DNA of 64,000 nucleotides from a virus. Under the pieces are notes generated by a model. It searched no databases. It saw only the letters and a list, made by a program, of their open reading frames with translations, and was not told where the DNA came from. Both the position numbers and the translations under genes were made by a program. Position 1 is the first letter of the stretch, and every line of letters starts with the position of its first letter. The stretch spans positions 1 through 64,000 of IMG/VR virus record IMGVR_UViG_3300031707_000001, one strand, 5' to 3'. This document shows, piece after piece, positions 13,608 through 63,760 of this stretch.

Positions 13608-14186
13608 TTGATGATAAGAGCAGAACACATCGTACACCTGAAGCTGGATAGAGACAGGTTATTGGCACATCGAAAAATGCCACCGCCACCCTATTCGACC
13701 AAGGAACTAACCAATCAAATTACGGCAATCGGAGATGCCATCATTGCCAATCTATTGAATGTCACGCCAGAAATATTCCAATTACAGTTGGAAGCGGCCA
13801 GACAATTCAAAGTGTCATACCTGGTAGAAGACTCGAACAGGAACATGTTGGGTATTTCTACAGCGTTGTCACTGATTAAAAATGGGGACATCCTCAGCAA
13901 GAGTCTAATCATGCCCAGGGACGTCCTATGGAAAGATGCTCGTTTGAAGAATCACTTTATTATAGGTGCTTTCATTCGAGGAAGTGTGGTAGATGGTGTG
14001 CTTCCGGACATTTCGGAAGTTGATGTGGCAGGATGGACGGATATTCATGACCTACGGAAATTCAAGCGGGAAGACCTCCCGCCGACCTTCAAGAGCAAAC
14101 TTCCGGTTGTTATGATACCTTGTTCTGTGCTTCATCCTATTTCGACATTAGAAGGACAGTTTGGTAAGGAAGTACAGTTTGTCTAA
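13608..14186 (+). CDS. Hypothetical protein
   Basis: 192 residues; either of two adjacent start codons (13608 or 13611) fits the TTAGGAG site. Mixed helices and strands, no motif recognised. A putative phage promoter begins at its stop codon. Confidence 0.7.
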   Translation: MMIRAEHIVHLKLDRDRLLAHRKMPPPPYSTKELTNQITAIGDAIIANLLNVTPEIFQLQLEAARQFKVSYLVEDSNRNMLGISTALSLIKNGDILSKSLIMPRDVLWKDARLKNHFIIGAFIRGSVVDGVLPDISEVDVAGWTDIHDLRKFKREDLPPTFKSKLPVVMIPCSVLHPISTLEGQFGKEVQFV

Positions 14187-14216
14187 ATACGTAGGTGGTA
14201 TACGTTATAACTACAT
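14183..14216 (+). promoter_or_regulatory. Putative phage promoter, copy 1
   Basis: CTAAATA (14183-14189), exactly 15 bases, then TTATAACTACAT (14205-14216). The same arrangement occurs at 19116, 41029 and 63877. It reads as a -35-like TAAATA and a TATAAC -10 with a 16-base spacer. It would drive the metallophosphoesterase gene. Confidence 0.6.
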
Positions 14217-18790: not shown

Positions 18791-19123
18791 ATGAACAGTG
18801 AATCCTGTTTGGACTGTACACACAAGCACCTCTGTCAAGCCATGATCATCCACGAGGAAGAGGTGCCTTTGGGTTATCCCGATGACATCAAGCGTGTGAT
18901 CGGCCACCTGGCTGAAGCCACCCGACACGCCTTGGGAAAACATCCTGGACTAGCCCTCTTACTGAGGCTGTGGCGCAAGACCGTACGTCAGACTAACTCG
19001 GTACCACCCTATGCTAAGATCATAGATTTTGTGGAAGTCCTGATTGCCTGTGAAAAGCAGAACCTGCCCTTTCCGGACCTGCCTGAAGGCCTGGGAAGCA
19101 CCACTGATCCGACCCCTAAATAG
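18791..19123 (+). CDS. Hypothetical protein, cysteine-rich N-terminus
   Basis: 110 residues; CLDCTHKHLCQA near the start suggests a metal site, followed by helices. AGGAGA precedes the ATG. Its TAG stop lies within the putative promoter copy 2. Confidence 0.7.
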   Translation: MNSESCLDCTHKHLCQAMIIHEEEVPLGYPDDIKRVIGHLAEATRHALGKHPGLALLLRLWRKTVRQTNSVPPYAKIIDFVEVLIACEKQNLPFPDLPEGLGSTTDPTPK

Positions 19124-19149
19124 GGGGTCGTAATCGGTTATAACTACAT
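19116..19149 (+). promoter_or_regulatory. Putative phage promoter, copy 2
   Basis: CTAAATA (19116-19122), 15 bases, TTATAACTACAT (19138-19149). Both boxes are identical to copy 1 at 14183 while the spacer differs. It would drive the gene at 19257 through a leader of about 100 bases. Confidence 0.6.
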
Positions 19150-19228
19150 GCCACAGAATAAGTCTTTCATTGGGACGGTTAACGTGACCGTCAGAACGAG
19201 AGGCTTTTTCTTTACTAACCGTAATAAT

Positions 19229-19240
19229 GCCCTTCGGGGC
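19229..19240 (+). promoter_or_regulatory. UUCG hairpin before the ribosome binding site
   Basis: GCCC-TTCG-GGGC, a very stable tetraloop hairpin, ends a few bases before the AAAGGAG site of the next gene. It may shape translation initiation. Confidence 0.5.
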
Positions 19241-19256
19241 AGGAAAGGAGACCCAA

Positions 19257-20234
19257 ATGGAATCAACCCCATTCGGGCCAAATGTTGGAGCGACGATTAC
19301 AGGACTGCAGCTACAGGAGGAGGAACGGCCGAAAATTCCGGAAATAACCCCTCCGGCGCCTGCAGTATTGGAACCCGCTCCGGCAAAGCCGATCGTTGAC
19401 GAACTGCGTTTCTGCGCCATCTACATGATTGGAATAACCCCGGGTATGACCGGCAGAGTTATTCCGCCAGAGCGTTCGAAGAAGGGAGAAGATGTCGGCT
19501 GGGTAAATCCCAGAGGTTGGTTGGTAGTGGGCCCGTCAAATCAGGTGCAGGATGCCTCCTATAAGGAATTCCTGAACAGCCTTCAGGGATACCGGTGGTG
19601 GTTGAATGCCGGCAAGCTGTACCACACGAAAGAACGGAAGATCGTGTGGCAGAATCCATCCATCGTTGAAGATTACATCGAGGAATGCACCTGCAGCAAG
19701 TGTAGCTGGAAGGACACCAAAACCTACCAGGAAACGTGCGTTATGGCCGAAGCGAAGCAATTCTGTTGTCCCAGTTGCGGAAGCAGAGTTCTGACACGGA
19801 GGTCGTTTACGTCCGTATTTCCTGGCAAGCCAAATCAACGGGAGATTTTCAAGACGCCCGAAGACGACGTCCTGCAGCAGATGCACATTCGAATGTGCGA
19901 AGAGGATATTGTTCCGTCTGAGCTGCTGCCGAGAATCTGGGCGTTGTATCCCATCGGAGATACACCCTTTGATTGGGCGCCACAAGACGAGAAAGCGAAA
20001 GCCCTGGATCAGAAGTTCAAGGCTTTTGGCAAAACCATACGACCGTTCAAGACGGCCCGAACGGTAAACTTCTCGAAAGGCGCACATCATCGTATCTATC
20101 GGTGGGCCATGGAAGTACATTCCGAACTACAGTTCGGATGGGTGAAGGTAACCGATTTGTGTACCCAGTCGATTGATGGACCGACCGGTTACACGAGGAG
20201 ATTTGGGTTCGAACCCAAACTGACCGGAGTATGA
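19257..20234 (+). CDS. Hypothetical protein with zinc ribbon
   Basis: 325 residues from the ATG at 19257 (AAAGGAG upstream). Proline-rich, disordered residues 1-45. A CTCSKCSW...FCCPSCGS zinc ribbon lies around residues 145-180. The C-terminal half is basic and helical. First gene after promoter copy 2; function unknown. Confidence 0.75.
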   Translation: MESTPFGPNVGATITGLQLQEEERPKIPEITPPAPAVLEPAPAKPIVDELRFCAIYMIGITPGMTGRVIPPERSKKGEDVGWVNPRGWLVVGPSNQVQDASYKEFLNSLQGYRWWLNAGKLYHTKERKIVWQNPSIVEDYIEECTCSKCSWKDTKTYQETCVMAEAKQFCCPSCGSRVLTRRSFTSVFPGKPNQREIFKTPEDDVLQQMHIRMCEEDIVPSELLPRIWALYPIGDTPFDWAPQDEKAKALDQKFKAFGKTIRPFKTARTVNFSKGAHHRIYRWAMEVHSELQFGWVKVTDLCTQSIDGPTGYTRRFGFEPKLTGV

Positions 20235-20698
20235 TTATTTCGTGGCGGTTCCTGGGTGCAATCCCTGGGAGCCGCCATAGATAATTGAATACTAAGAAGC
20301 TAGTCTTTAATTATTGCAGACTATAAAACAGTATGCAAATTTGTATTTACTAAAGTTTGCAGTCTGGAGAACAGTCTGCAAACGTTAGTGTTTCAAATGT
20401 CTCATTAAGCAAAAACTGATCGGAAGTGCCGATGTAAGTATTTCCGTATCAATGAGTAGCTACAAAATCAAAAGACTGAGTCTGGATTCTCAGACGACCT
20501 ATTTCTAAAAAGGTTCTCGACGTGCTTTTGGGCCGAAAACGTGTGATTTCTGCGCCGTAGGCTATATACGAAGTATATAGCCCACTGCCGTACTGATATC
20601 CCAGTTACGTCCGAAAACCACTTCTCTCCAAAAAGTAGAATTTTCAATTTTTCCAAGCCGAAAGAAACAAACCCGAAAAATGCTAACAGGAGAAACCT
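20235..20698 (+). other. 464-bp non-coding region rich in inverted repeats
   Basis: No gene seen. Contains GGCGG/CCGCC hairpin (20244-20276), a GTTTGCAG/CTGCAAAC repeat near 20360-20390, an ATCGG/CCGAT hairpin near 20420, and a perfect GGCTATATAC-GAA-GTATATAGCC hairpin (20560-20582). A CCGAAAAC word recurs. AT-rich compared with neighbours. It could be a structured RNA, a long leader or a replication or packaging signal. Confidence 0.5.
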
Positions 20699-30181: not shown

Positions 30182-30300
30182 AGATCCAGCGTGAACTGTT
30201 CGTGGAGCCCAGCACCGACGAGAACATGAAGAAACTCCAGGCAATCAAAGGCCAGATCGAACGGCACGTTGCGGCCGGCGAGAAGATGGAATCCGTATAA
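30127..30300 (+). CDS. Very small helical protein
   Basis: 57 residues, GAGGC upstream. Composition (LSELLKIQRELF, ENMKKLQAIKGQIERHV) is a credible two-helix protein. Its stop abuts the first copy of the duplicated RNA element. Confidence 0.55.
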   Translation: MQTEVSMHPCEPKLSELLKIQRELFVEPSTDENMKKLQAIKGQIERHVAAGEKMESV

Positions 30301-30402
30301 ACGTCAATGGTGGATCGTTCAGCCGTTGGCCCGGCCGGTACCACGGCTGAAAGGTGAGGGTTTAGAGCCACTCACCAACTCTACTAACGTGGGGATGGTT
30401 TA
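30300..30402 (+). ncRNA. Duplicated structured RNA element, copy 1
   Basis: 103 nt, 98 identical to copy 2 at 30885. Hairpins TCAGCC..GGCTGA enclosing GCCG-GTACCA-CGGC, and GGTGAG..CTCACC with loop word TAGAG that can pair with a downstream CTCTA (pseudoknot). Lies between a small gene and tRNA-Asn. Unknown class. Confidence 0.65.
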
Positions 30403-30449
30403 AGGATTGCTTCTGATTGCCAAGTGTGGTTGAATATTTGTGGACAGAT

Positions 30450-30536
30450 TCGGGAGTCGCCTAATGGTCTGGCAGCGGCCTGTTAAGCCGCCGCTGCGGA
30501 AGCAGCCTGCAGGTTCGAATCCTGCCTCCCGAGCCA
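30450..30536 (+). tRNA. tRNA-Asn (GTT) with long variable arm
   Basis: Acceptor TCGGGAG/CTCCCGA, G73, CCA. Anticodon arm GCGGC-CTGTTAA-GCCGC. The variable region holds a 5-bp hairpin GCTGC-GGAA-GCAGC, a class II feature normally limited to Leu, Ser and Tyr tRNAs. D stem of 3 bp (GCC/GGC). U1-A72 and G73 match Asn tRNAs. Confidence 0.88.
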
Positions 30537-30537
30537 C

Positions 30538-30612
30538 GTCCCCATAGACTAGCGGTTAGGTCATCGCCCTTTCACGGCGATCGGGGGAGTTCGAATCTCC
30601 CTGGGGACACCA
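30538..30612 (+). tRNA. tRNA-Glu (TTC)
   Basis: Acceptor GTCCCCA/TGGGGAC, anticodon arm TCGCC-CTTTCAC-GGCGA, T arm GGGAG-TTCGAAT-CTCCC, encoded CCA. Two bases after tRNA-Asn. Confidence 0.93.
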
Positions 30613-30628
30613 GTTTCGAAGGAGCATT

Positions 30629-30859
30629 ATGGTTGGTCAAGGCACGCAATCAGCATCGCATGAATACGTCGTGGGTCCCGATACAAGTACGGCGCCTACA
30701 GTTGATGGATGTACAATAACGTTTACGATCGATCCGGTAAAGCTATCGGTGGACAAAGCCGAAGCTGAAGCAAAGCGGCGCCAAGAAAACATAGAGCACG
30801 AACGCAAGGTTTGGCAGGAGCGGCGAAAAGCACTTCGAAAACTCTCGAAGATTTCATGA
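30629..30859 (+). CDS. Small hypothetical protein
   Basis: 76 residues, AAGGAG upstream. Polar N-terminal part, then a strongly charged helix (KAEAEAKRRQENIEHERK). Lies between tRNA-Glu and RNA element copy 2. Confidence 0.65.
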   Translation: MVGQGTQSASHEYVVGPDTSTAPTVDGCTITFTIDPVKLSVDKAEAEAKRRQENIEHERKVWQERRKALRKLSKIS

Positions 30860-30884
30860 TCGAAAGTTAGCAAACATGTATATT

Positions 30885-30987
30885 AACGTCAACGGTGGAT
30901 CGTTCAGCCGTTGGCCCAGCCAGTACCTTGGCTGAAAGGTGAGGGTTTAGAGCCACTCACCAACTCTACTAACGTGGGGATGGTTTA
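30885..30987 (+). ncRNA. Duplicated structured RNA element, copy 2
   Basis: Same 103-nt element as at 30300. The inner hairpin reads GCCA-GTACCT-TGGC, a compensatory change from GCCG/CGGC in copy 1. Flanked by ACATGTATA on both sides (30874 and 30986), which could be a target duplication or extra pairing. Confidence 0.65.
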
Positions 30988-31004
30988 CATGTATAGTTAC
31001 TGTT

Positions 31005-31226: not shown

Positions 31227-31303
31227 GGGGGCGTAACTCAACTGGTTAGAGTGCCACTCTGATACGGTGGATGTTATAGGTTCAACTCCTGTCGCCCCTA
31301 CCA
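31227..31303 (+). tRNA. tRNA-Ile (GAT)
   Basis: Acceptor GGGGGCG/CGCCCCT, anticodon arm CCACT-CTGATAC-GGTGG, T arm ATAGG-TTCAACT-CCTGT, encoded CCA. Confidence 0.92.
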
Positions 31304-45746: not shown

Positions 45747-45827
45747 AGGCAGTTACAGCTAAGTCGTTAAGTAAGCGCTTCGGCGTAGCCGGATCAGTGT
45801 GGTCCGGAATGACCTAGCTGTCTGCCT
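45747..45827 (+). ncRNA. Three-way-junction RNA
   Basis: AGGCAG plus ACAGCTA (45747-45761, TT bulge) pair with TAGCTGT plus CTGCCT (45815-45827). Inside are GCGC-TTCG-GCGT and CCGGA/TCCGG hairpins. Lies after the small basic protein gene and before a terminator and tRNA-Phe. Confidence 0.6.
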
Positions 45828-45844
45828 AAACCATTTGATAGACA

Positions 45845-45876
45845 GGCAGCTCCCTGAAAAGGAAGCTGCTTTTTTG
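45845..45876 (+). terminator. Rho-independent terminator
   Basis: GCAGCT(C)CC pairs with GG(A)AGCTGC, followed by six T residues. Separates the upstream RNA from tRNA-Phe. Confidence 0.85.
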
Positions 45877-45879
45877 TTT

Positions 45880-45955
45880 GGCGACTTAGCTCAGTTGGTA
45901 GAGCAGCAGACTGAAAATCTGCGTGTCTCCAGTTCGATTCTGGAAGTCGCCACCA
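45880..45955 (+). tRNA. tRNA-Phe (GAA)
   Basis: Acceptor GGCGACT/AGTCGCC, D arm GCTC..GAGC, anticodon loop CTGAAAA in stem GCAGA/TCTGC, T arm with TTCGATT, encoded CCA. Confidence 0.94.
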
Positions 45956-54718: not shown

Positions 54719-54779
54719 GGGTGCGTAGCTCAGTGGTAGAGCCATGGAAACCGTGGGTTCGAATCCCGCCGCATCCACC
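54719..54779 (+). tRNA. Mini-tRNA lacking the anticodon arm
   Basis: Acceptor GGGTGCG/CGCATCC with G3-U70, A73, then CCG. D arm GCTC-AGTGGTA-GAGC and T arm GTGGG-TTCGAAT-CCCGC are intact, but only about ten bases (with a GG-AAA-CC mini-hairpin) replace the anticodon arm. It cannot decode. The G3-U70 pair is the alanyl-tRNA synthetase signal. Confidence 0.6.
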
Positions 54780-63642: not shown

Positions 63643-63760
63643 GGCAGGGTAGCTCAGTTGGTAGAGCACGTAATCGTACAGTTTGTATGAACTGGCTACA
63701 GCAACCAAAATTACCCTTATAAGGTCGTGGTCGTGGGTTCGAATCCCACCCCTGCCACCA
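63643..63760 (+). tRNA. tRNA-Ile-like (TAT) with 42-nt insert
   Basis: Acceptor GGCAGGG/CCCTGCC, D arm GCTC..GAGC, T arm GTGGG-TTCGAAT-CCCAC, A73, CCA. The anticodon stem CGACC/GGTCG with loop CTTATAA forms only if 63671-63712 is removed from between bases 28 and 29. The insert contains the 36-nt core (63676-63711) shared with the next tRNA. Confidence 0.75.

Follow-up and report, generated by a model that had tools for sequence, protein, structure and literature searches.

We show here that an element of about 103 nt with a predicted RNA fold is present twice, as an abruptly bounded unit, in the tRNA region of a 210,732-bp virus record, whose bases 1 to 64,000 constitute the window analyzed in this work. 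The five differences between the copies leave the predicted fold intact, a direct repeat borders the second copy, and neither copy has a match in Rfam. With caution, and at somewhat less than even chances, we interpret the element as an orphan structured intercistronic RNA of a phage tRNA/small-gene region that may have been duplicated recently as an exact unit.

Two copies of the element in a phage tRNA region

Both copies lie on the plus strand. Their 103-nt cores occupy positions 30300-30402 (copy 1) and 30885-30987 (copy 2), and similarity already begins at 30296 and 30881, respectively, so that it spans 107 nt in total (30296-30402 versus 30881-30987; 94%). Five bases distinguish the two cores, namely, 30308 (T>C), 30333 (G>A), 30337 (G>A), 30343 (A>T), and 30344 (C>T). 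The coordinates of the copies and the number of differences agree exactly with those given in a preliminary description of this DNA. DNA and covariance-model searches of the whole record detected these two copies only, with E values of 9e-52 and 1e-43, which excludes chance similarity. Reading frame +2 is open in both copies, and since the five changes alter residues in this shared frame, a conserved peptide was ruled out.

The window carries 27 tRNA genes and a tmRNA, and ARAGORN called none elsewhere in the record. As noted previously, the copies are situated near tRNAs and small genes, namely, tRNA-Asn (30450-30536), tRNA-Glu (30538-30612), and tRNA-Ile (31227-31303), with small open reading frames (ORFs) between them. 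Both copies have the orientation of these tRNAs and are placed in gaps following small ORFs. A gap of 47 nt separates copy 1 from tRNA-Asn; no tRNA is found within 230 nt of copy 2, and ORF 31005 starts 17 nt after the end of this copy. We did not detect a clear ribosome-binding site of ORF 31005 or a terminator or promoter-like site on the plus strand around the element.

Predicted fold

Energy folding of both copies with their flanks yielded the same minimum-energy structure, composed of a closing stem, P1, followed by hairpins H1 to H4 separated by spacers of 1, 3, and 2 nt. H1 (30303-30330 in copy 1 and 30888-30915 in copy 2) is formed by GUCAAYGGU and GCCGUUGGC, and H2 (30332-30349 and 30917-30934) by CRGCCR and YGGCUG. 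H3 (30353-30376 and 30938-30961) reads GGUGAG-GGUU-UAG-AGCC-A-CUCACC, with outer pairing GGTGAG/CTCACC and inner pairing GGTT/AGCC at the DNA level, and H4 (30379-30394 and 30964-30979) pairs CTCTAC with GTGGGG around the loop TAAC; both of these hairpins are invariant. P1 is formed by TAAAC/GTTTA, with 5 bp in copy 1 (30298-30302 with 30398-30402) and one mismatch in copy 2. In copy 1, it may extend beyond the repeated unit through AATCC/GGATT (30290-30294 with 30404-30408), a pairing weakly above chance, so that the element including its closing stem would span 30290-30408. The flanks of copy 2 could lengthen P1 via CATGTA/TACATG. We give these extensions little weight because flank pairing of this strength occurs at roughly 5 to 20% of random sites.

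Our best model is thus a five-way junction built of P1 and H1 to H4. The preliminary description had proposed a fold at the RNA level, present twice, which is very likely; that fold missed H1, H4, and the closing stem and needs to be revised in this respect. The predicted energy is about -44 kcal/mol without P1, and folding with flanks gave z-scores of -3.7 and -4.7, which no shuffled sequence equaled. Stability alone is no proof of a functional structure, since in a coarse scan of the window about 12 other 124-nt stretches, some of them inside genes, reached z < -4.4.

Changes between the copies and the fold

All 33 pairs of H1 to H4 are standard in both copies, and none is broken by the five changes. 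The change at 30308 converts a U-G pair in H1 into C-G, and the remaining four fall within H2, where a G-U pair becomes A-U, the double change at 30337 and 30344 replaces G-C by A-U, and the change at 30343 is in the loop, adjoining the latter pair. The compensatory exchange of GCCG/CGGC for GCCA/TGGC recognized in the preliminary description is therefore genuine and corresponds to 30337 with 30344. The same five substitutions placed at random cost about 9 kcal/mol on average, whereas the observed set costs nothing, which was equaled by 2.7% of the random placements; by other measures, this proportion was 5% (refolded energy), 8% (pair count), or 11% (base-pair distance). In a pair-shuffle control (246 of 500), covariation was not separable from chance, and with two sequences such a control has almost no power, which is also why the covariation signal itself is weak. 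The placement of the changes is suggestive, though not conclusive, of selection on the fold.

Two alternative pairings were considered and rejected. The words UAGAG and CUCUA, previously proposed to form a pseudoknot, are indeed present and complementary, but they are used in H3 and H4 and neither varies. Their pairing would contribute about -3.3 kcal/mol at the expense of H4 (-4.7 kcal/mol) and of the inner H3 pairing (about -4.2 kcal/mol). By our own estimate, chance alone provides a 12-nt loop with a 5-base complement in the following 20 nt in about 1 of 8 cases. The pseudoknot was hence dismissed on grounds of energy and invariance. A long hairpin closed by TTCAGCC/GGCTGAA, which comes within about 5 to 8 kcal/mol of the best fold, was not accepted as the main fold; its energy deficit in copy 1 is 5 kcal/mol, and 3 of its 34 pairs are lost in copy 2.

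Flanks of the copies

Similarity between the copies ends abruptly at P1, and the flanking sequences are unrelated. A perfect 9-bp direct repeat, ACATGTATA, flanks copy 2 at 30874-30882 and 30987-30995; this possible target-site duplication is absent from the preliminary description. Such a repeat was found at the corresponding flanks of 0.025% of random window sites, or 0.08% when A+T content was matched. The flanks of copy 1 contain no direct repeat, and terminal inverted repeats are limited to TAAAC/GTTTA at the ends (about 4 to 5 bp, with one mismatch in copy 2). As ACATGT is palindromic, the direct-repeat and the stem readings of the copy 2 flanks are partly one observation. The repeat is a stronger signal than the flank pairing of P1 and suggests that an exact unit was inserted or copied from a template.

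Searches for families and homologs

No Rfam 15 family matched either copy at its gathering score or at E ≤ 10, in line with the earlier impression that the element belongs to no known family; a match of this kind had been named as one result that would overturn it. ARAGORN and the Rfam tRNA model called neither copy as a tRNA. At the sensitivities used, no homolog, and hence no conservation across species, was detected in some 30 records of related phages or in IMG/VR, INPHARED, PLSDB, or GTDB. Comparison by blastn produced nothing but short chance matches with phages and none with plasmids, and IMG/VR yielded 0 matches to four patterns that require exact bases (one without any tolerance, three permitting stem changes). 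A scan of GTDB genomes gave 6 matches, about the number expected by chance according to our own estimate, the best of which, in Leuconostoc (L078), had a covariance-model E value of 4.

Neighboring proteins used as bait in IMG/VR retrieved no relatives. By way of the large terminase (178.6 kb), we reached 35 IMG/VR loci of related phages. Among these is a 209-kb relative, G005, with a terminase identity of 69% and a tRNA/tmRNA island of its own. The two-sequence covariance-model search recommended at the outset was run on 30 records, of which 29 were relatives identified through the terminase, and on about 1.7 Mb of further DNA but revealed no credible third copy, nor did unfiltered covariance-model scans of the window and of the G005 tRNA region. 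Repeats of similar size in another relative, G013, proved to be protein-coding motifs. In the relative G009, the gene order tRNA-Gln, homolog of ORF 28849, tRNA-Glu, and tRNA-Ile equals that of the window, and nothing resembling the element lies between these genes. The same order without the element implies that both copies reside in lineage-specific inserts.

Possible nature of the element

We infer transcription, processing, and function of the element. Each copy would be transcribed on the plus strand together with its neighboring genes and would fold into four hairpins in a row, with a short stem closing the five-way junction. An ORF precedes both copies, and what follows is a tRNA in one case and an ORF in the other; for this reason, the most likely mode of action is that of a self-contained intercistronic RNA, not of a switch for one downstream gene. 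The element could be processed into a stable small RNA, or it could serve as a module for processing or stability of the polycistronic tRNA transcript. Copy 2, placed in an apparent 9-bp target duplication, would stem from a recent duplication of the exact unit.

The strongest rival to an RNA element, although we consider it rather unlikely, is a small nonautonomous mobile DNA repeat of the MITE type, which would insert with a 9-bp target duplication, whose hairpins would serve transposition or be incidental, and which would have no role as RNA. Like MITE and REP-like repeats, the element is short, intergenic, and rich in hairpins, was duplicated as an exact unit, and has at one copy a target-site-like direct repeat of a kind that few random sites show. 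The sharp ends of similarity between unrelated flanks and the position of both copies in inserts that relatives lack also speak for this reading. However, a direct repeat is missing at copy 1, the copy number is just two, clear terminal inverted repeats do not extend past about 4 to 5 bp, no DDE_Tnp_1 transposase was found in the record, and the changes preserve the RNA fold. The RNA and the mobile-DNA readings become compatible if the RNA itself is mobile. It is tempting to speculate that the element represents a new class of mobile functional RNA, a compact phage five-way junction outside all known families that spreads as an exact unit from one intercistronic site of a tRNA island to another, but we regard this as improbable. 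Less probable still is a cis-regulatory RNA of the next gene, such as a riboswitch or a translational operator. It would fit the position of copy 2 just ahead of ORF 31005, and the long hairpin described above is close enough in energy to make switching conceivable. Yet this alternative fold is weakened in copy 2, and neither a terminator nor a promoter-like site accompanies the element on the plus strand. Moreover, a riboswitch would be expected upstream of related genes, whereas the copies precede unrelated features. With a tRNA downstream of copy 1 and an ORF lacking a clear ribosome-binding site downstream of copy 2, a gene-specific switch is unlikely.

Theta ribozymes, which process phage tRNA transcripts by self-cleavage, are likewise small structured RNAs amid phage tRNA genes, and those associated with tRNAs lie no more than 5 nt from them (PMC10879173). 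The element is compact and close to tRNAs as well, but with 47 nt between copy 1 and its tRNA and >230 nt in the case of copy 2 it lies beyond this limit, a nested double pseudoknot common to both copies is lacking, no Rfam ribozyme family matched at E ≤ 10, and a loose HDV-like descriptor gave unrelated partial fits that differed between the copies. We thus consider a self-cleaving ribozyme highly improbable. The least probable of the readings considered here seems to be a guide-RNA scaffold for the TnpB-like protein of this phage, in which the variable 3' flank would be the guide. The genome encodes a TnpB-type protein, and the copies combine a common core with differing 3' flanks; however, their 5' flanks differ too and pair with the supposed guides, and the element is located about 112 kb from tnpB, whose surroundings contain no similar sequence, while omega RNAs are found at the 3' end of tnpB or beside it.

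With regard to known large structured RNAs of phages and prophages, an orphan intercistronic RNA would resemble GOLLD and ROOL in being structured, without known function or obvious target gene, and located in or near a phage tRNA island (PMC12286853). It matches neither of their Rfam models. GOLLD is conserved in many phages and often longer than 800 nt, whereas the element measures about 105 to 120 nt and is an orphan present twice. Two copies in one metagenomic phage without homologs make a candidate, not a family. If real, it would be a compact addition to the little-understood structured RNAs of phage tRNA islands, small enough for probing, expression, and structure determination.

Other RNA features and genes of this phage

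A different RNA of this phage may reward study more than the duplicated element. Window positions 59415-59552 specify a circularly permuted tRNA-like RNA, in which the T-arm and the 3' acceptor half are placed upstream of the 5' acceptor half and the D-arm. It resembles the Rfam family YrlA (Y RNA-like) with 35.3 bits (E = 4e-6), below the gathering score of 69 bits. Weak YrlA matches are common across tandem tRNAs, and only stand-alone places were counted. Permuted tRNA-like RNAs are also present in G005 at 128778-128896 (L137) and 159386-159499; the former (38.9 bits) follows a gene resembling window ORF 58528, and its location looks syntenic. A Ro60/TROVE protein was not found in the window's record.

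Two further tRNA-like genes were matched by the Rfam tRNA model and not called by ARAGORN. The first (54719-54777; 59 nt, 48.4 bits) has the acceptor, D-arm, and T-arm, and its anticodon arm is almost absent (GGAAACC). The other (63643-63757; 115 nt, 51.9 bits) contains roughly 40 extra bases between the D-arm and the T-arm, possibly an intron, an insertion, or a decoy.

The TnpB-type protein is encoded beyond the window (L145:706-1758; about 143050-144102 of the record) and carries the Pfam domains OrfB_IS605 and Cas12f1-like_TNB. Alignment with solved TnpB proteins places a serine at the second RuvC glutamate (ICYSDDSFKGM), and judged by this residue the protein may be nuclease dead, like TldR repressors.

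A 34-nt repeat ending in TTATAACTACAT occurs at 14183-14216 and 19116-19149, with 74% identity between its copies, and may be a phage promoter or some other RNA element. Its second copy lies within 19101-19224, the most stable fold in the window scan (z = -7.2). Very stable structures were also predicted at 20225-20295, where a long, GC-rich, and nearly perfect stem begins at the end of ORF 19227-20234, and at 45747-45880, a multihairpin region that ends in a terminator-like stem just before tRNA-Phe.
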